This document shows, in pieces, positions 40,476 through 49,579 of a stretch of 64,000 bases of DNA (position 1 is the stretch's first letter; every line of letters begins with the position of its first letter). A program made the translations under genes and the position numbers. Origin of the DNA: Planctomycetota bacterium (lineage in GTDB: Bacteria > Planctomycetota > Phycisphaerae > Phycisphaerales > SM1A02); the NCBI GenBank assembly GCA_021414025.1, contig JAIOPG010000006.1, positions 124,001-188,000 on the forward strand, in the 5' to 3' direction. The notes beneath the pieces were generated by a model. It ran no database searches, was not told where the DNA came from, and worked only from the letters and a program-made list of their open reading frames with translations.

Positions 40476-41483
40476 CTAAACTTTGTAATAGTCGCGGTAC
40501 CACTCCACGAACTTGGCCACGCCGGTCTCGATCGGCGTCGAGGGCTGGTAGTTCATGTCGCGAGCCAGGTCGGTGGTGTCGGCGCAGGCGTCGGGCACAT
40601 CGCCAAGCTGAAGCGGCAGCATTTCCATGATCGCCTTGCGGCCTAGGCAGTGCTCCAGCACCTCGATGTAGCGCAGAAGCTGCACGGGTTTGGAGCAGCC
40701 GATGTTGTAGAGGCGCCACGGCGCGCTGCTGCTGGCGGGGTCGGAATTGGCGGGGTCGAACTTGGGGTTCGGCGTGGCGATGCGATCGGCGGCGGCAATG
40801 ACTCCGCGGGCGATGTCATCCACATAGGTGAAGTCGCGTGTGTGCTTGCCGTGGTTGAAAACGCGAATCGGCTGGCCGGCCAGGATGGACTTGGTGAACA
40901 TGAAGAGGGCCATGTCGGGGCGGCCCCACGGACCATAGACGGAGAAGAAGCGAAGGCCGGTGGTGGGAAGGCGGAAGATGTGGCTGTAGGAGTGGGCCAT
41001 GAGCTCGTTGGCCCGCTTGGTCGCCGCGTAGAAAGTCATCGGATGGTCGGCGGTGTGGTGCGGCGAAAAAGGCTGCGTGGTGTTGAATCCGTAGACGGAG
41101 CTGGTGCTGGCGTAGACCATGTGCGGCACTTCGCTGTGACGGCAGCCCTCGAGGATGTTGGTCATGCCGACCAGGTTGCTCTGCGCGTAGACCAGAGGGT
41201 GCTCCATGGAGTGACGCACACCGGCCTGGGCGGCGAGGTGAATGACGCGGTCGAACTTGTAGGAAGCGAAGAGTTTCTTGACGCCGATGGTGTCGCACAA
41301 TTCCAGATGCGAGAACGAGAAGCCCTTGCGCGACTCCAGGCGGGCGAGGCGGGCCCGCTTGAGTGCGGGGTCGTAGTAGTCGTTCATGTTGTCGAAGGCG
41401 ACCACCTGGTCGCCGCGGTCAAGCAGCTGATGCGCCGTGAACGAGCCGATGAATCCAGCGGCGCCGGTGACCAGAACGAGCAT
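40476..41483 (-). CDS. UDP-glucuronate 4-epimerase-like NAD-dependent epimerase
   Basis: A 335-residue extended SDR. The NAD site is [11 protein letters not shown] and the catalytic region is ASTSSVYG followed by [10 protein letters not shown] (YxxxK). The blocks [52 protein letters not shown] and RDFTYVDDI closely match UDP-glucuronate 4-epimerases (LpsL/CapI/Gae type), which make UDP-galacturonate for capsule or LPS. The start ATG 41483 has TAGAAT ending exactly 6 bases upstream. It lies at the edge of the polysaccharide locus and probably supplies a uronic acid for it. Confidence 0.88.
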
Positions 41484-41754: not shown

Positions 41755-42879
41755 TCAGGCGAGTCCGATTGCGTTCAGAATCGCGGTGTTGACGATTGCT
41801 GCGTCGTAGCGCACTTCTGCGACCTTGCGGCTCGCCGCGCCCATCGCAGCGGTTCGAGCGTGATCGTGGGCGAGTTGAAGCATGGCCTCCGCCAGCCGCT
41901 CGGCTGATTGAACTGGAACCAGTAGTCCGTTGACTCCGACCTGGATCGGATCGCGGCAGCCAATTGCGTCCGTTGAAATGATTGCGCGACCGGTTGCCAT
42001 GGCCTCAAGCACGACCTTGCTTGTGCCCTCGCGGTAGGAGGGCAGCACGAACACGCTGCATGCGGCGAGGTGCGGGCGGATGTCCTCCACCTCGTCGAGG
42101 GCTTCGAAGCAACCCTCGCTTGCCCACTTCACGATTTGATCGCGGCTGAAGCTCGTCGGATTGTCATCCCGCGCGCAGAGCAGCGTGCAGCGTATCGACG
42201 GATCCTTCGTGCGGACTATCTTGCACGCATGGGCGAACTCCGCGACGCCCTTGTCCTTGAGCGGACGGCTGACCATTAAGAAGTGAGTCTGCGAGGGCAC
42301 GGGTTGAGCCGCGAAGTGCGTCAGATCGACACCCGAACCTGGAATCATGAGAATGCGATCATTCGCAACATGCTCGAGCACGCCCATCGACGCAAGCTCA
42401 TCGCGGTCCTGCTGATTCTGGAAGAAAACCGCATTGCATGCCGCGAGTGAGCGCCGATAGAGCCGGGTCGAGAAGAACTGCACGAGTCGCCGGATCGGCG
42501 AGCCCCCCATGAATGCGTAGCCGAGTCCGGTGACAATCGCCGCGACATGCTTCACGCCCGCCCGCCGCGCCGCGATCGGTCCATAAGCGATGCACTTGGG
42601 GTTGTACGCGAGGAGTGCGTCCACTTGTTGCTCCCGCAAGACTGCTTCGACAGCGTTTTGAAATCGCATATCAGACCACGGAGAAATCTTTCCGCCTTGC
42701 AGCGGCGTGTCGAAGTGCTCCACGCCCGCTTCCTTGAGTCGCTGCTTCGCACGCGCGGTGCCCGGCGCCGTGAGCGCGATCACGCGGCAACCCTTGCACT
42801 GCGCCGCCCTGATCAAGCTGCCGCGAAAGGCCAGCACATGGTTGGCGTTCTTGCCCAGGATTGCGAGAGTCTTCGTCAT
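41755..42879 (-). CDS. Glycosyltransferase family 4 protein
   Basis: A 374-residue GT-B fold glycosyltransferase. The N-terminal domain begins TKTLAILGKNANHVLAFRGSL, like WcaL/WbpX-type enzymes that build O-unit repeat backbones. The C-terminal GT4 domain has FLMVSRPLKDKGVAEFAHAC (donor-site start), the E-x7-E region PSYREGTSKVVLEAMATGRAIIST, and the C-terminal PVQSAERLAEAML. It transfers a sugar from an NDP-donor to a growing lipid-linked chain on the cytosolic face. The start ATG 42879 overlaps the asnB stop (ATGA), so it is coupled to the amidotransferase. Confidence 0.87.
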   Translation of the reverse strand: MTKTLAILGKNANHVLAFRGSLIRAAQCKGCRVIALTAPGTARAKQRLKEAGVEHFDTPLQGGKISPWSDMRFQNAVEAVLREQQVDALLAYNPKCIAYGPIAARRAGVKHVAAIVTGLGYAFMGGSPIRRLVQFFSTRLYRRSLAACNAVFFQNQQDRDELASMGVLEHVANDRILMIPGSGVDLTHFAAQPVPSQTHFLMVSRPLKDKGVAEFAHACKIVRTKDPSIRCTLLCARDDNPTSFSRDQIVKWASEGCFEALDEVEDIRPHLAACSVFVLPSYREGTSKVVLEAMATGRAIISTDAIGCRDPIQVGVNGLLVPVQSAERLAEAMLQLAHDHARTAAMGAASRKVAEVRYDAAIVNTAILNAIGLA

Positions 42880-44870
42880 GAGGTCGGCTTCCAGCGCTGT
42901 GCCCACTTCATCCACATCAGCACCGCCCACATTCGATGTTGGTGTCCGCCCTTGCCAGCGCACAACTGCGACCATTCGTGCGCCACGGTGTCCTTGTTCA
43001 GGAAACCGTGCCGCTCGATTCGCCCGGGTTCAAGCAGCGCATCGGCCCACTTTCGCAGCGGCCCGCGCAGCCACTCTTCCAGCGGAATCGCAAACCCCAT
43101 CTTGGGCCGGTCATGCAGCGGCGCCGGAACAAATCGGTTGAGCACCTTCCGCAGCAGCCACTTGCCCTGGCCGTTGCGCACCTTCATGTCCGCGGGCAGC
43201 GTCCATGCGAACTCGACCAGTCGATGGTCCAGCAGCGGAACGCGCGTTTCCAGACTCGCGGCCATGCTCGCCCGGTCGACCTTGGTCAGGATGTCGTCGA
43301 CGAGATAGGTGGTCTGGTCGAGCCACTGCATGCCGCGCAGCGCGTCGGGCATGTCGGCTTCTGGCGCCGGCGAATGGCCCGCGCCAATACCTTCGCCAAT
43401 ATGGGTGCCACCGTTGGCGCCACCACGAGCGCCGATGACCAGTTTGCTCGGCTCGTTCCACGCGCTCACCAGCGCGACATAGGCGTCGCCCCACTCCTTC
43501 GCCTCCGCCAGCGACGCAAACTTGTGCAGATGGTCGCCGAACTGGCTGGAGCGCAGCGACTCGGGAAGCAGGGGAGTGGCGACTTTGCCGATCGCGTCGA
43601 GCGCCCGTGTGGAGAACATCTGGATGGTTCGCGCCGCGGCGACTCGCAGCGGCCCGGGAATCCTTTGCAGTGTTCCCCACATCTCGTCGATCACGCGGTG
43701 GCGGTTATAGCCGGCAAAGAGTTCGTCGCCGCCGTCGCCGGAGAGCGCCACCTTGACCGACCGCCGCGCCATGCGGCTGATGACATAGGTCGGCAACTGA
43801 CTGGAGTCCGCGAAGGGCTCGTCGTACATGTCCGCAAGCTGCGGAATCGCCTCGCGCATCTCGTGTGGCGAAACTTGCACGCTGGTGTGGTCGGTGCGCA
43901 GGTGTCGGGCGATGTTGTCGGCGAAGACTCGCTCGTCAAACTTTCCTTCGTTGAAACCAACCGTGAAGGTCTGGATCGGCCGGCTCGAGAGCGACTGCAT
44001 CATGGCCGTCACCAGCGTCGAGTCGATGCCGCCGGAAAGAAACGAGCCGATCGGGACGTCCGCGACCATGTGTCCGTCGACCGCTTCCTGGATTCGACGA
44101 AAGAGCGCCTCCTCGGCCTGCTCGTCGCCGCCCTCGAAGGGCTCGGCGATGCCGCGCTCCGCAATCGCCCGCGCGTTCCAGTAGATCGCGGTCTGCGTTT
44201 CGCCCGAATCCAGGTTGAGTGTGAGAACGCGGGCGGGCTCGAGCTTGGAGATTCCTTTCCAGATGGTCCGCGGCGCTGGCACATAGAGGAACTGGAAGTA
44301 GGCGGCCAGTGCCTCGCGGTCGACGGCGCGTTCGAAGCCGGGCATGCCTGCGATCGCCTTCAGCTCGCTGGCGAAGACGAAGGTGCGCCGTTCGCCGGCA
44401 CCAATCCAACCATAGTGGAGTGGCTTGATGCCGATCCGGTCGCGCACCAGATGCAGCTTGCGCTCCACCGCATCATGGATGGCGAAGGCGAACATGCCCA
44501 CCGTCCGCCGCGCCGCCGCCTGCACACCCCATTGCTCGACGGCGGCCAGCAGCACCTCGGTGTCCGATTGAGATCGGAACGACGCCCCCAGCATCTGCAG
44601 CTCATCGCGCAACTCGTGAAAGTTGTAGATCTCGCCGTTGTAGACCAGCGTGAAACGGCCGCTGATGCTGCGCATCGGCTGCGCCGCGGCGTCAGTGCAG
44701 TCGATGATCTTCAATCTCGTGTGCGCCAGCCCCGCACGCGACTTCGCATCGAACCACACACCCGACGCGTCGGGACCGCGGTGGCGCAGCGTTGCCGCCA
44801 TCTCGCGGAGCACGCCCTCCGGATTGTTCAGGGCCCCCGCGAAATCAACCAGGCCCGCTATGCCGCACAT
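42876..44870 (-). CDS. asnB: Glutamine-hydrolysing asparagine synthetase-type amidotransferase
   Basis: A 664-residue two-domain enzyme. The N-terminal class II glutaminase has the nucleophile Cys2 directly after Met (MCGIAGLV), RHRGPDASG and the YNGEIYNFHELR loop. The synthetase domain has the PP-loop FLSGGIDSTLVTAM and SGDGGDELFAGYNRH. All active-site motifs of AsnB are present, so it should be active. In polysaccharide loci such enzymes often amidate a uronic acid or amino-sugar residue instead of free aspartate, and its coupling to a GT4 gene fits that. It is about 30-50 residues longer than E. coli AsnB. A divergent CapD-type gene lies 157 bases upstream. Confidence 0.9.
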   Translation of the reverse strand: MCGIAGLVDFAGALNNPEGVLREMAATLRHRGPDASGVWFDAKSRAGLAHTRLKIIDCTDAAAQPMRSISGRFTLVYNGEIYNFHELRDELQMLGASFRSQSDTEVLLAAVEQWGVQAAARRTVGMFAFAIHDAVERKLHLVRDRIGIKPLHYGWIGAGERRTFVFASELKAIAGMPGFERAVDREALAAYFQFLYVPAPRTIWKGISKLEPARVLTLNLDSGETQTAIYWNARAIAERGIAEPFEGGDEQAEEALFRRIQEAVDGHMVADVPIGSFLSGGIDSTLVTAMMQSLSSRPIQTFTVGFNEGKFDERVFADNIARHLRTDHTSVQVSPHEMREAIPQLADMYDEPFADSSQLPTYVISRMARRSVKVALSGDGGDELFAGYNRHRVIDEMWGTLQRIPGPLRVAAARTIQMFSTRALDAIGKVATPLLPESLRSSQFGDHLHKFASLAEAKEWGDAYVALVSAWNEPSKLVIGARGGANGGTHIGEGIGAGHSPAPEADMPDALRGMQWLDQTTYLVDDILTKVDRASMAASLETRVPLLDHRLVEFAWTLPADMKVRNGQGKWLLRKVLNRFVPAPLHDRPKMGFAIPLEEWLRGPLRKWADALLEPGRIERHGFLNKDTVAHEWSQLCAGKGGHQHRMWAVLMWMKWAQRWKPTS

Positions 44871-45027
44871 GATCGCTCATTGGCCATCGGGTCGATGTTG
44901 GTTTGAATTGTTTTTAATGTGGGCATGCGATCGTGCACTCGATGATCGGATGCTATCGCCCGTGCAATCGCGGTTTCGATGCCGCGAAGCCCGTTGCTCG
45001 CGATCCCGCTTCAAGTATCATGCCCGC
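44871..45027. other. 157-bp divergent promoter region of asnB and the CapD-type gene
   Basis: It holds an AT-rich patch (about 44912-44925, TTGAATTGTTTTTAAT) that is the likely asnB promoter area. On the other side TTGCTC (44994-44999), 16 bases and TATCAT (45016-45021) lead to GTG 45028. No small gene is visible. Confidence 0.4.
45016..45021 (+). promoter_or_regulatory. Predicted -10 box of the CapD-type gene (TATCAT, 6 bases before GTG)
   Basis: TATCAT ends exactly 6 bases before GTG 45028 and has TTGCTC 16 bases upstream as a possible -35. Confidence 0.5.
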
Positions 45028-46902
45028 GTGCGCAACTACCTCGTTCGATTGCCGGGAATAAACAAACTTCTGGTCGCGGGCGTGACCGACGCCCTGCTTT
45101 CGGGCGGTCTGCTGCTGGGGGCCTACTGGCTGAAGTACGGCGACATTGCCGAGGCGTGGAACTCCTGCAATCACCTGATGTTCTGGGCCGCCTTCCTGGG
45201 CCCCGTCTGCTACCACGTGACCGGCCTCTACCAGGAGATCACCCGCTACATCGGGCCGATCTTCGCGGTGCGCGTGGTCAAGGGGGTGGCGCTGCTCACC
45301 ATCGCGCTGCTGCTGATCTCCTTCATCGAGGATCGCTTCGCCACGCTGCCGCGCACCGTGCCCTTCATCTACTTCAGCATCACCACGCTCGCCATCGGCG
45401 CCATGCGGCTCGCCGCGCGCTGGCTGCTGCTGGGCAAGAGCGGCTACGCGCCGGCCTATCCGGTGGCGATCTTCGGAGCGGGCGCCGCCGGCGTCGGATT
45501 GCACGCGGCGATCGTGCACGGGCGCGAGCAGTTGGTGGTCGCCTTCATGGACGACGATCCGAAACTGCACGGCCGCAAGATCCGCAATGTGCCCGTCTAC
45601 GGCGGCGACGATCTCGCGGAAGTCTTCGAGAAGCACAACATCAAGGCGCTGCTGCTGGCGCTGCCCTCCGCGAGTCGCACGCGCCGCCGCAGGCTGGTCG
45701 AGACCGCGACCGCGCTGGGCATTCGCGTGCTCACCGTGCCGACCCTGGCGGAGCTTGACGATGGATCGGCCAAGGTGGGGCAGCTTCGCCCCGTCAAGGT
45801 GGACGATCTGCTCGGCCGCACGCCCGTGGCGGCCAACGAGGAGCTCATGCACCGCCACATCACCGGCAAGAGCGTGCTGGTGACCGGCGCCGGCGGCTCG
45901 ATCGGTTCCGAGCTGTGCCGGAAAATCCTGGAGGCCAGTCCGACGCGCCTGGTCCTGCTCGACCACTCGGAGCACAACTTGTATGTGATTGAAAAGCAGA
46001 TCCGCGCGTTGATCGCCAACCGGCGCTCGGAGACGATTCTTGAAACTTCGCTCGGCTCGGTGAACGATCGCGTGCTGCTGGACCGCCTGCTGGCGGCGCA
46101 GCGCATCGAGACCATCTACCACGCCGCCGCCTACAAGCACGTGCCCATGGTCGAGCGCCACGAGACCGCCGGCGTGGAGACCAATGTCTTCGGCACGCTC
46201 ACCGCGGCGCGGGCCGCGCTGCACGCGGGCGTGAAGGCCTTCGTCTTCGTCTCCACCGACAAGGCGGTGCGCCCAACAAGCGTCATGGGCGCCAGCAAGC
46301 GCCTGGCGGAGATCCTTCTGCAGTCGATGCAGGAACAGTCCAAGGGCCGCACCAAGTTCGCGATGGTGCGCTTCGGCAACGTGCTGGGCTCCTCCGGCAG
46401 CGTCATTCCACTTTTTCAGGAGCAACTGGAGCGCGGCGGACCGGTCACCGTGACGCATCCCGAGATGGTGCGCTACTTCATGACGATTCCCGAGGCGGCG
46501 CAGCTGGTCATTCAGGCCGGCGCCATGGCCAACGGCGGCGAGGTCTTCGTGCTGGACATGGGCGAGCCGGTGAAGATCCTCGACCTGGCCAAGAACATGA
46601 TCCGCCTCGCGGGACGCACGCTGCGCGATGAGTCCAATCCCAGCGGCGAGATCGAGATCCAGATCACCGGCACGCGCCCCGGCGAGAAGCTCTACGAGGA
46701 GTTGCTCATCAGCGACGACACCAGCCATACCGAGCATCCCTCGATCGGGCTGGCGCGTGAGCCCTTCGAGTCCTGGAGCTCGCTCGAGGCGCGACTGGAC
46801 CGTCTGCAGACCGCGGTTGATCAGCGCGACGATGGCGTGGTACGCATCCTGCTGGGCGAGCTGGTGGGTGGCTACCAGACCAACCCGGTCAAGAATCGCT
46901 AG
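45028..46902 (+). CDS. CapD/FlaA1/WbpM-type membrane nucleotide-sugar 4,6-dehydratase/epimerase
   Basis: A 624-residue inner-membrane enzyme. Four N-terminal membrane helices (about residues 10-120) are followed by a Rossmann-like domain (VAIFGAGAAGVGLHAA) and then the catalytic SDR domain with VTGAGGSIGSELCRKIL, YHAAAYKHVPMVE, VSTDKAVRPTSVMGASKR and RFGNVLGSSGSVIPLF. This is the PglF/WbpM/CapD layout: UDP-GlcNAc 4,6-dehydratases that start synthesis of di-N-acetyl or deoxy amino sugars for capsule, O-antigen or glycoprotein. The start is GTG 45028, supported by the 6-base TATCAT spacing. Its stop shares CTAG with the stop of the convergent AsnB-like gene. Confidence 0.9.
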   Translation: MRNYLVRLPGINKLLVAGVTDALLSGGLLLGAYWLKYGDIAEAWNSCNHLMFWAAFLGPVCYHVTGLYQEITRYIGPIFAVRVVKGVALLTIALLLISFIEDRFATLPRTVPFIYFSITTLAIGAMRLAARWLLLGKSGYAPAYPVAIFGAGAAGVGLHAAIVHGREQLVVAFMDDDPKLHGRKIRNVPVYGGDDLAEVFEKHNIKALLLALPSASRTRRRRLVETATALGIRVLTVPTLAELDDGSAKVGQLRPVKVDDLLGRTPVAANEELMHRHITGKSVLVTGAGGSIGSELCRKILEASPTRLVLLDHSEHNLYVIEKQIRALIANRRSETILETSLGSVNDRVLLDRLLAAQRIETIYHAAAYKHVPMVERHETAGVETNVFGTLTAARAALHAGVKAFVFVSTDKAVRPTSVMGASKRLAEILLQSMQEQSKGRTKFAMVRFGNVLGSSGSVIPLFQEQLERGGPVTVTHPEMVRYFMTIPEAAQLVIQAGAMANGGEVFVLDMGEPVKILDLAKNMIRLAGRTLRDESNPSGEIEIQITGTRPGEKLYEELLISDDTSHTEHPSIGLAREPFESWSSLEARLDRLQTAVDQRDDGVVRILLGELVGGYQTNPVKNR

Positions 46903-48758
46903 GCCGGGGCCAGTTCCGGCTGGCGCCGGAGCCAATATTCAAGCAGCAGCAGCGACCAGCGGCGATCGACCGTCTGACGCGGAGTGGCCGCAGGGGCGGC
47001 GAGCAGGCCGCGCAGTCCGATCCGATTGGTGAGCGTGAGAACGCGCGACTCGGGTTCAAAGAGAGCGGCCTCGCTCAGATCCATGAGCGCTTCCTCGAGG
47101 CGCGGCGGAATCGACGAGCGGTTGCGCGCGGCGATGCGCTGGATCATCGATTCGGGCAGGTAGCGCCGCAGCAGATGCACCAGCGCGCCGCCATTGCCGC
47201 CATGCGGCTGCGGCATCACGCCGTGAACGCCAAGCCGCGCGACGCGGTTGCACAGAAATGGCGTGGTCACCGCGAGCGAGTGGTGCATGCAGACCTGGTT
47301 GAGCAGGGGGATGGCGGTGGTGCGGAGCGATCTGCGGCCCTGCGCCACGTTGGAAGTTTCGGAGCGCGGGCGCGGTTCGTTCGAAATGGCTCCACGTGAA
47401 GCGCCGACACCGGCGGCCAGGAGATCCGCGGGAGTCCAGTAGGACGGGGGCGCGACGGACTCCGTGACGGGCTCCGCCTCATCGCGACTGCGAAGCAGCG
47501 CTCGCAGCGACGCGAACCAGGAAGCCTGCCCCTGGGTGTGCGTGCCATCCCACTCCTCGCCCGCGAACAGGTCGGTCGCGCCCGCGCCGCTGACGGCGCG
47601 CGGCGAACTCATGCGGATGAAGGGCGCGATCGTGTTCAGCGACACCACTTCCGAGGCTGCCAGGGGCTCGTCGAGCGACGCGGCGATGCGGCTGAGCATC
47701 TCGGAGAGATCCTCCAGCGGCTCGCAGGTGCGGTGGGTCGCGCCGATCTGGCGGGCGACATCATGGGCCAGCGCCGCCGACTCCGCGTCAGCCGCGCTGG
47801 ACAATCCGTAGGTGTGCGTGGGAAGCGCCAGCTCCGCGCGGCACATGGCCGCGATCAGGAAGTCAGCCAGAGTTCCGGTCGGCATGACATGCGCGCCGCC
47901 GGAGCTCAAGTCCGAGCCATGCAGCGACTCAAGCAGCGCCCGCCGCAGCAGTTCCACCTGCTCGGCGAGGGCCAGATCCTGGAGGCGCGGATCGCCATTC
48001 GGGTTGTCGTTGCGGAAGGCCGAAGAGTTCAGCTCGCTGCAGGTGGGGGCCAGCAGGGTGGCGCTGCCGATCGAACCGGGATCGCTGGCCCGGATGGAGA
48101 TCACGCTGGCGCTGGCGAAGAGCGGGGCGCAGTCGAGCTCCACAAAGCAGCCGGCGCCGACCTTGCTCGCCTCGCGATGGATGGTGTGCGTGCCGCGCAC
48201 GCCGCCCGAGGAGAGGTAGTCGCCGATCGACTTGGCATCGAGCGCGGCGCCCAGTTCCGGCATGCTCCGCAAGGCGCGGAGTTCGCTGGCGAAGGCGAAC
48301 CAGCCGCGGCCGCTGGCGAAATAAAGCGGCCGCGCGTCGAAGGCGTCGCGGGCCAGCAGCAGCTTCTTCAGGCGGTCGTTCCACAGGGCCAGCGCGAAGG
48401 GGCTCTCGATGCCGCGCAGGGCCGCGATCGGACTCTTGGTCGGATTGGAAAATGTCTTCACGAGTTCCCGCAGCGAATCGGGAAGATCGCCAGGCAGGAT
48501 CGCATTGGTCCCCGAACTCTCCAGTTCGTCGCCGTCATAGACGATGTGAATGGATTGGTCGCTGTCGCTCGACGCCGGCTTGCGCGACGAGAGCAGATGG
48601 CAGTCGCTCAGTGCAATGCGTGCCTGTGGGTCGATCCAGTAGGTATCGCGCTCGAAACCGCGGTGGATCATCGCCTGCTGCATCTGCGACATCAGCGAGC
48701 GCAGCGCGTCGCCCTCCAGGCCGGCCCCGAAATCGATCAGGCCGCAGATGCCGCTCAT
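46899..48758 (-). CDS. Degenerate asparagine-synthetase-like protein, both active sites lost
   Basis: A 619-residue protein with the full length and domain order of AsnB but without its catalytic residues. The N-terminus is MSGICGLIDFGAG: the residue after Met is Ser, not the nucleophilic Cys. The glutaminase loop YNGEIYN is replaced by YDGDELESS. In the synthetase half the SGGIDST PP-loop is replaced by MPTGTLADFL, and SGDGGDELFAGY becomes SGAGATDLFAGEE. Some scaffold motifs survive (ARDAFDARPLYFASG, FAFASELRAL). The frame is intact and well over 600 codons, so it is not a decayed pseudogene. I infer a pseudoenzyme, perhaps a partner or decoy of the intact AsnB. It is coupled (ATGA) to the upstream YdcF-type gene. 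Confidence 0.82.
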   Translation of the reverse strand: MSGICGLIDFGAGLEGDALRSLMSQMQQAMIHRGFERDTYWIDPQARIALSDCHLLSSRKPASSDSDQSIHIVYDGDELESSGTNAILPGDLPDSLRELVKTFSNPTKSPIAALRGIESPFALALWNDRLKKLLLARDAFDARPLYFASGRGWFAFASELRALRSMPELGAALDAKSIGDYLSSGGVRGTHTIHREASKVGAGCFVELDCAPLFASASVISIRASDPGSIGSATLLAPTCSELNSSAFRNDNPNGDPRLQDLALAEQVELLRRALLESLHGSDLSSGGAHVMPTGTLADFLIAAMCRAELALPTHTYGLSSAADAESAALAHDVARQIGATHRTCEPLEDLSEMLSRIAASLDEPLAASEVVSLNTIAPFIRMSSPRAVSGAGATDLFAGEEWDGTHTQGQASWFASLRALLRSRDEAEPVTESVAPPSYWTPADLLAAGVGASRGAISNEPRPRSETSNVAQGRRSLRTTAIPLLNQVCMHHSLAVTTPFLCNRVARLGVHGVMPQPHGGNGGALVHLLRRYLPESMIQRIAARNRSSIPPRLEEALMDLSEAALFEPESRVLTLTNRIGLRGLLAAPAATPRQTVDRRWSLLLLEYWLRRQPELAPA

Positions 48759-49579
48759 GGTGTCGTCCCGGTCGCGGTCTCGCGCGGCGGAAAGAGCCGC
48801 GCCGAAAGCAGTCCCAGATATTCCTTGACGCAGGTCTCGGTCTGGTCCAGCGCCTGCGCCCGCGGCAGCAGCATGGCCAGAGAGAATTGTTCGTCGACGC
48901 CCGCGGTGAGGTAGTGGCAGGGCAGGCCCACCACCTCGAAGCCCAGCGCGCGGAACTGCATCGACGCCCGCGGCAGGTGCCAGACGCTGGTGGCCAGCAG
49001 AATTTTCTTCGCGTTGAGCGCCCGCAAGGTCGCGGCATGCTGCAGAGCCTCACCCTCGGTGTTGAGCACCGGCAGACCGACCATGATCGCGGATTCCGGC
49101 ACGCCCAGGGCCATGGCTTCCTGCTTTTGGAAGGCGCCTTCGCACACTTTCGGTTCATCGTCCTTGCCGCCGCCGCCAAGGACCAGCCACGGCGCCTTGC
49201 CCATTTTGTAGGCCTCCACCGCGACGCGCAATCGCTCGGTCATCGCGGTGAGAATCAATGGATCGCCCGGCTTTTCTCGGTGCCAATGAAAGGAGCTGCC
49301 CAGCACCACGATCGCGTCGCACTTGGGCGCGGCGGCCACGGGCATCCCGGGCGTCATGCGCTCCAGGCTCGCCGCCAGCCATGTCGCGATCAGCGGCGTG
49401 CACGAGAGATAAAGCAGCATCGCGCCGATTGCGCTCATGGAAAATCCGGCGCGCCAGGCTCGCGTGTCGCTGCGCGCGCGGTTTCTGCAGATCAGCACCA
49501 GTCCCGCGGCGATCAGCACCAGGCACACCGTCGAGGGCATGAACAATGGAAGCCACCATCGTGGTGTGGTCAGAAACAT
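48755..49579 (-). CDS. YdcF/SanA-type DUF218 membrane protein
   Basis: A 274-residue protein with two N-terminal membrane helices (about residues 13-31 and 45-70) and a DUF218 domain facing the periplasm. Family blocks are DAIVVLGSSFHWH, WLVLGGGGKDDEP, NTEGEALQHAATL and LLATSVWHLPRASMQFRALG. DUF218 proteins (YdcF, SanA, ElyC) affect envelope integrity and sugar-lipid metabolism in known bacteria; the reaction is not established. It heads a two-gene unit with the degenerate AsnB-like gene and is divergent from the aquaporin gene by 61 bases. Confidence 0.82.
   Translation of the reverse strand: MFLTTPRWWLPLFMPSTVCLVLIAAGLVLICRNRARSDTRAWRAGFSMSAIGAMLLYLSCTPLIATWLAASLERMTPGMPVAAAPKCDAIVVLGSSFHWHREKPGDPLILTAMTERLRVAVEAYKMGKAPWLVLGGGGKDDEPKVCEGAFQKQEAMALGVPESAIMVGLPVLNTEGEALQHAATLRALNAKKILLATSVWHLPRASMQFRALGFEVVGLPCHYLTAGVDEQFSLAMLLPRAQALDQTETCVKEYLGLLSARLFPPRETATGTTP

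Follow-up and report, generated by a model that had tools for sequence, protein, structure and literature searches.

An open AsnB-type gene without either active site, overlapping a ydcF-type gene in a Phycisphaerales genus: a probable selected pseudoenzyme

The gene considered here lies at positions 46899–48758 on the reverse strand of a 64,000-nucleotide stretch of DNA from a Planctomycetota bacterium of the order Phycisphaerales (assembly GCA_021414025.1, contig JAIOPG010000006.1, forward-strand positions 124,001–188,000; the whole stretch is called ‘the window’ below). We refer to this gene, which we read as encoding a double-dead pseudoenzyme of the asparagine synthetase B (AsnB) type, as PSEUDO, to the intact type encoded beside it as AsnB1, and to a second intact amidotransferase type as AsnB2. 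A first-pass annotation had described an intact open frame of AsnB layout, and this is what the gene contains: 619 amino acids from an ATG start with no internal stop, and matches to the Pfam families Asn_synthase (53.3 bits, cut-off 21) and GATase_7 (37.9 bits, cut-off 25) in AsnB order, with GATase_6 falling slightly under its cut-off (24.9 of 27 bits). Residues 1–212 (48123–48758, reverse strand), the best conserved part of the protein, form an N-terminal nucleophile (Ntn; glutaminase)-like domain whose fold is taken from a structural model, and residues 263–613 (46920–47972, reverse strand), delimited by alignment and model, form a synthetase (PP-ATPase)-like domain that has lost its active site. 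Both the Pfam matches and the two-domain fold place PSEUDO in the AsnB superfamily by descent and fold.

The same annotation had listed the loss of Cys2, of the YNGEIYN loop, of the PP-loop and of the SGDGGDE motif, all of which recur in an alignment of the eight full-length PSEUDO proteins with 27 chosen homologues (15 AsnB2, 12 AsnB1). The window copy begins MSGICG, read directly from the start, with Ser at position 2; it has VYDGD at the position of VYNGEIYN in AsnB, TGTLAD (47862–47879, reverse strand, located by alignment) for the PP-loop SGG[IV]DS, and SGAGATD (47571–47591, reverse strand) as a remnant of SGDGGDE. In all eight full-length copies Cys2 is replaced by Ser and the glutamine-pocket Arg by His, while Asp75-Gly76-Asp77 (48528–48536, reverse strand) replaces the Asn-Gly-Glu oxyanion/glutamine-binding loop (DGD in 8/8, against NGE in 27/27 homologues) and the pocket Asp of SDTEV has given way to His, Leu or Tyr. 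On the synthetase side the PP-loop is present in none of the eight, all eight replacements differing from one another, and neither an intact SG[DE]G[GS]DE motif nor the catalytic Lys of RxKxGF is found in any; LLNQ or LMNQ stands at the K[VL]DR position. The residues S2, C5, C53, H54, D75, G76 and D77 are invariant across the eight. Each of the 27 homologues retains Cys2, the Arg, NGE, the Asp, the PP-loop, SGDGGDE and the RxKxGF Lys, which holds for these proteins, picked as AsnB1 and AsnB2 rows, and not for every AsnB homologue: among more distant full-length frames, which were only pattern-scanned, the simple patterns are missing for the PP-loop in L028 and L093, for NGE in L032 and for SGDGGDE-type motifs in several. 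One account of human ASNS describes a glutamine pocket of Arg-48, Asn-74, Gly-75, Glu-76 and Asp-96 and a synthetase site including Glu-364, Asp-367 and Lys-466, the E364A variant being inactive (PMC6748925). By our own motif-based mapping of columns, the residues replaced in PSEUDO appear to correspond to these sites, and the window copy has Ala at the column of Glu-364. Judged from these replacements, PSEUDO is probably unable to hydrolyse glutamine by the known route or to adenylate a carboxylate. The decay of the synthetase half is staged, in that the window copy keeps a recognizable SGAGATDLFAG that is deleted or hardly recognizable in the seven other full-length copies.

Directly upstream of PSEUDO, and overlapping it, is a YdcF-type gene of the DUF218 family (48755–49579, reverse strand; Pfam), ElyC-like and under the equivalog cut-off (61.7 of 205 bits), whose product is presumably a membrane protein, by analogy with ElyC and from a hydrophobic N-terminus seen by eye. 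The coupling of the two genes suspected at first pass takes the form of a 4-bp ATGA overlap (48755–48758, reverse strand) between the ydcF stop and the PSEUDO start, present in all nine copies that have this junction on the contig, and the two genes are probably translationally coupled. The overlap fixes A as the first base of codon 2 and thus makes Cys2 (TGY) impossible; codon 2 of PSEUDO is AGC or AGT (Ser) in the copies, a single base change away from ATG TGY, with which all six of the intact AsnB2 genes inspected (of 15) begin. Because the overlap excludes Cys2, loss of the nucleophile and capture of the gene behind ydcF would be one event in sequence terms, and because it forces an A at codon 2, an unchanging Ser2 says less about a role for the serine than one might suppose.

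The gene is carried by ten of the 16 genomes of the genus, as a full-length copy in eight (the window’s genome, G002, G003, G005, G006, G008, G010 and G014) and as a piece at a contig end in two (G012 and G015), and it is precisely in these ten that the AsnB1 sequences group as a single clade (100/100). No intact copy occurs among the eight full-length orthologues, and the window copy is thus not alone in its degradation. Among 181 genomes of the family, no PSEUDO match outside the genus was better than E 1.7e-38; at E ≤ 1e-45 the profile matched eight of 400 genomes sampled from the order, each of this genus, and one of 392 sampled from the phylum, the window’s own. The preserved length to which the first-pass annotation had pointed is true of the window copy, with its 619 amino acids, and not of the full-length orthologues, which have 562–588, the shortfall coming mainly from a large deletion of the stretch that follows the synthetase motif.

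Selection on PSEUDO was estimated from pairwise Nei–Gojobori ratios of nonsynonymous to synonymous substitution rates (dN/dS) among congeners, the pairs being formed from the copies other than that of the window. The ratios range from 0.16 to 0.32 (eight of the 21 congener pairs shown), and for the five pairs bootstrapped over the whole gene every interval falls within 0.12–0.43; in the same pairs the neighbouring genes give 0.11–0.15 (AsnB1), 0.11–0.18 (CapD), 0.08–0.17 (YdcF) and 0.06–0.14 (MIP), the AsnB of G003 entering as a cut gene of 396 codons. PSEUDO is therefore under purifying selection, weaker than that on its neighbours. In 15 pairs from six genomes, G003 being left out, the median dN/dS is 0.143 for the Ntn-like domain (0.099 in AsnB1) and 0.257 for the synthetase-like domain (0.139 in AsnB1). 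Across the eight PSEUDO proteins, 107 of the 212 N-domain columns are invariant; among ungapped columns of the synthetase domain, 35 of 132 are invariant in its first half and 42 of 123 in its second. In AsnB1 of the same genomes the two domains are about equal (mean dN 0.075 and 0.089), and for human ASNS and its homologues stronger conservation is described in the synthetase domain (PMC6748925); since the N domain is the most constrained in PSEUDO, the order is reversed there. With losses common to all eight full-length copies and dN/dS clearly below 1, the proposal that PSEUDO is a selected pseudoenzyme, which has lost its catalytic residues and whose orthologues share that loss under purifying selection, appears well supported on sequence grounds.

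The neighbourhood is that of a polysaccharide-type locus. A CapD-type nucleotide-sugar dehydratase gene (Polysacc_synt_2; 44650–46902, forward strand; Pfam) is followed by asnB1 (42876–44870, reverse strand), the canonical AsnB named at first pass, which encodes 664 amino acids, passes TIGR01536 with 485.6 bits and has Cys2, NGE, the PP-loop and SGDGGDE. Beyond it lie a gene for a glycosyltransferase of the GT4 type (41755–42975, reverse strand; Pfam) and one for a nucleotide-sugar epimerase/dehydratase family protein, NAD-dependent, which is under every NCBIfam equivalog cut-off listed (40476–41483, reverse strand). With starts taken from the longest frames, both capD and the GT4 gene run into the ends of asnB1; congener matches suggest real starts further in, that given for capD being probably too far upstream and that of the GT4 gene probably lying within its frame. 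As far as the contigs reach, the gene order common to the carriers is sucD, two unnamed genes, a methyltransferase gene, the MIP channel gene, ydcF, PSEUDO, capD (on the opposite strand), asnB1, the GT4 gene, the epimerase gene and GH57, with capD and then asnB1 adjoining PSEUDO in all ten carriers (asnB1 of G003 is cut by the contig end) and ydcF on the other side in all nine that have that side on the contig. In G001, which lacks PSEUDO, ydcF and capD are separated (L050:3985-7150) by a Wzy_C O-antigen ligase/polymerase gene (71.5 bits) and a 648-amino-acid gene that matches no Pfam family and has, by eye only, the look of a Wzz-type chain-length protein; in G007 a glycosyltransferase-like gene, likewise named by eye, follows ydcF. 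The contig of the window also carries, at a distance of about 137 kb, a further AsnB-type gene (G000:C6:31922-33733), a 631-codon frame with SGGMD for SGGIDS.

The fold of PSEUDO was modelled with AlphaFold2. On the alignment of the eight orthologues alone the predicted local distance difference test score (pLDDT) was 34.4 and no usable fold was obtained; once 20 more sequences of the AsnB type had been added, taken from the window, the orthologue loci and IMG/VR loci, the model reached a pLDDT of 73.7 and a predicted template modelling score (pTM) of 0.78. In that model 422 of the 619 residues are at 70 or above, and residues 55–67, 83–89, 215–252, 401–415, 420–480 and 514–522 are below 50. 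Its VIA matches include TsnB9 (7ylz; Z 26.2, root-mean-square deviation (rmsd) 4.0 over 486 residues), E. coli AsnB (1ct9; Z 24.5, rmsd 4.1, 441 residues) and human ASNS (Z 24.2, rmsd 3.9, 452 residues), the rows beneath the AsnB-type ones (PurF, GlmS, GFAT, LarE, EgtC and others) covering far fewer residues, and Foldseek template modelling (TM) scores by query are 0.51–0.53 for E. coli AsnB and 0.61 for TsnB9. A phmmer search of PSEUDO against solved structures gave a single weak match, again 7ylz. These results support, with the caveat that the intact rows in the alignment pulled the model that way, a predicted two-domain AsnB fold (Ntn plus PP-ATPase-like).

As to the origin of PSEUDO, we collected 99 homologous frames, 67 after removal of identical ones, with L053–L060 left out as repeat congener genomes, and built a midpoint-rooted tree from 59 of the 67 rows, the eight dropped being fragments and L088, L036 and L002. 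The PSEUDO proteins form a single clade (100/100), whose stem measures 2.29 changes per column and which attaches (100/99) to the AsnB2 subfamily, which comprises intact proteins from other genera and a sister family. PSEUDO thus probably descends from AsnB2, judging by this tree, and was not copied from the neighbouring AsnB1: the latter origin was considered and rejected, as an approximately unbiased (AU) test on 33 of the 59 tree rows, including six of the eight PSEUDO rows, rejects a clade of PSEUDO with the AsnB1 of the genus (p-AU 1.45e-6, at a cost of 58.9 log-likelihood units). In this smaller tree no single branch sets AsnB2 apart, and PSEUDO may therefore arise from within it. In five of ten genomes examined (G030, G161, G059, G154 and G156) an AsnB1-like gene, 43–52% identical to the window AsnB, lies within a few kilobases of AsnB2; in G154 the two matches are some 30 bp apart. 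Elsewhere in the homologue set, an AsnB-type gene is nearly identical in L051 (G013) and L052 (G009), genomes assigned to different species (branch lengths 0.008 and 0), which may reflect recent transfer or shared bin contamination.

Among known systems, PSEUDO resembles the WbpS/TIGR03108 amidotransferases (here AsnB2) in its best NCBIfam score, its place in the tree, its polysaccharide-type locus and the two-domain fold of its model, and is unlike them in lacking both active sites in all eight full-length copies and in scoring far under the 816.9-bit cut-off. Intact relatives are also under that cut-off (two AsnB2 proteins at 436.8 and 461.8 bits, AsnB1 at 577.5 bits). Its modelled fold matches E. 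coli AsnB (1ct9; TIGR01536) and TsnB9 (7ylz) over nearly its entire length, yet it is without the Cys2, glutamine pocket, PP-loop, SG[DE]G[GS]DE and catalytic Lys of these enzymes. The model also matches beta-lactam synthetase (1jgt; Z 22.3) and carbapenam synthetase (1q15; Z 20.2), which have the AsnB fold with a non-functional glutaminase site and an active synthetase domain; in PSEUDO, unlike these, the synthetase site is lost too. The AsnB-fold proteins without glutaminase function that are known to us have lost one site and kept the other, and we found no account, in the open-licence literature searched, of an AsnB-fold protein with both sites lost yet selected. ASNSD1 was weighed as a known relative and left aside: one source calls it a potential glutamine amidotransferase (GAT) enzyme predicted by similarity (PMC9140057).

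It seems most likely that PSEUDO is a non-catalytic subunit of envelope-polysaccharide amidation, because its Ntn-like domain is constrained, the YdcF-like protein is probably co-translated with it and AsnB1 is kept by every carrier. The first-pass annotation had likewise suggested a partner, a regulator or a binding domain in polysaccharide amidation, a role that would agree with the conserved gene order and with the probable origin from an amidotransferase of a polysaccharide locus. Two reports tie WbpS-type members of TIGR03108 to uronamide synthesis through mutant phenotypes (PMC7468200, PMC6025236), and together with the TIGR03108 scores of AsnB1 and AsnB2 this link suggests that the locus amidates a polysaccharide containing uronic acid. 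In the ancestor of part of the genus, AsnB2 would have been the second of two AsnB-type amidotransferases of such a locus; it would then have been placed directly behind ydcF with the ATGA overlap, codon 2 changing from Cys (TGY) to Ser (AGY), and the remainder of both active sites would have been lost afterwards, an order of events that we infer. The conserved Ntn-like domain may now act as a binding or assembly subunit, pairing with the intact AsnB1 and/or the co-translated YdcF-like membrane protein, and the complex may place or regulate uronic-acid amidation at the membrane polysaccharide machinery. As a whole, we consider this account, of an AsnB2-derived selected pseudoenzyme serving as a binding or assembly subunit with AsnB1 and/or YdcF in uronic-acid amidation, somewhat more probable than all others together.

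A number of observations weigh against this account. PSEUDO is less constrained than its neighbours, and its synthetase half is decaying, the site drifting or deleted. The correlations of its amino-acid distances with those of neighbouring genes are moderate at best (AsnB, r 0.39; CapD, 0.56; YdcF, 0.68; MIP, 0.41); computed over 21 non-independent pairs in which the other genes reach 0.67–0.82 among themselves, like or above the PSEUDO values, these correlations do not choose between partners for PSEUDO. With 89.7 bits it falls short of the 267.1-bit cut-off of TIGR01536, the asparagine-synthase equivalog, and its top NCBIfam score, 99.4 bits for TIGR03108, misses that cut-off as well. TIGR03108 itself discriminates poorly, matching something in all 14 control genomes with no match over the cut-off, which makes the WbpS label a loose one. 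The stem of PSEUDO is very long, the tree program flagged long branches meeting, and six of the eight PSEUDO rows have an odd amino-acid make-up, so that the kinship with AsnB2 may be distorted; the AU hypothesis, moreover, was framed only after the first tree was known. In the other five of the ten genomes examined there is no AsnB1-like gene near AsnB2 within the stretch fetched. Finally, six of the 16 genomes of the genus lack PSEUDO (G001, G007, G004, G009, G011 and G013). In G001 and G007, both 98% complete, ydcF is present and no PSEUDO-like gene follows it; the absence is less sure in G004, G009, G011 and G013 because those genomes are 73–95% complete. As G001 also retains capD and AsnB1, none of these three genes requires PSEUDO.

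Other explanations share parts of this evidence. PSEUDO could be a regulator that binds the nucleotide sugar, glutamine or ATP but does not turn it over, and in this way acts as a repressor of, or a signal to, AsnB1 or the polymerization machinery, the coupling to ydcF only setting its dose; the AsnB fold kept in the model and the conserved synteny with AsnB1 agree with this, but the known contacts to glutamine and ATP are lost or variable, which makes the old ligands unlikely, and we hold the idea to be unlikely overall. It is rather unlikely, in our estimation, that the Ntn pocket has been re-tooled, with Ser2 (Met1 removed) as nucleophile or ligand together with Cys5, Cys53, His54, Asp75 and Asp77 in a new hydrolase, transferase or sensor and the synthetase half left over. 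Serine is a known Ntn nucleophile, the pocket replacements are mostly fixed in all eight copies whereas the eight PP-loop replacements all differ, and the N domain has the lower dN/dS; yet the ATGA overlap alone forces the A at codon 2, which may make Ser2 a frozen accident, the Asn of the oxyanion hole is now Asp, and the SDTEV Asp is not conserved in what replaced it (His, Leu or Tyr). We find quite doubtful a related version in which capture of the start by the ydcF stop removed the catalytic Cys in one step and left a protein peculiar to the genus, its Ntn pocket rebuilt, that would work at the membrane together with YdcF, either through a new Ser-type Ntn activity or as a new ligand sensor controlling polysaccharide amidation.

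That PSEUDO is a decaying pseudogene, open by chance, is very improbable. Its segment 401–482 is weakly constrained, being largely deleted in congeners with dN/dS of 0.35–0.81 on 15–34 codons, and its rate of protein evolution is roughly double that of AsnB1 (seven congeners differ on average by 0.310, against 0.153 for AsnB1). Against this, all eight full-length copies are open, dN/dS is 0.16–0.32 with bootstrap intervals well under 1, differences are concentrated at the third codon position (2854, 1840 and 5062 at positions 1, 2 and 3), and the N domain is nearly as constrained as that of AsnB1 (0.143 against 0.099); for the gene as a whole, the dN/dS results rule out neutral drift of a pseudogene, in line with the first-pass annotation. 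To an artefact of a wrong frame, an antisense gene or an assembly error we give next to no credence. In the window copy, where the GC content of third codon positions (GC3) is 0.85, an antisense open reading frame of 458 amino acids does span much of PSEUDO, but in the seven congeners (GC3 0.52–0.56) no antisense frame is open for more than 163 codons, and a homologous open reading of the sense strand is present in other assembled genomes, a conservation that rules out the antisense gene and a frame artefact. The GC content of the window is 64.9%, compared with 53–56% on contigs or stretches bearing the corresponding locus in six genomes placed in this genus (L037, L039, L040, L042, L043 and L050), a large shift within one genus that accompanies the long antisense frames of the window.

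Read as a selected pseudoenzyme, PSEUDO would be a case in which both sites of an AsnB-type protein are gone and the gene is still selected, with intact AsnB2 relatives elsewhere and the decay visible in stages. The ATGA overlap suggests a simple route to such proteins, in that operon packing can forbid an N-terminal nucleophile, and the PSEUDO locus offers a small, testable system for a possible cooperation between an amidotransferase and a YdcF-like envelope protein in polysaccharide modification.

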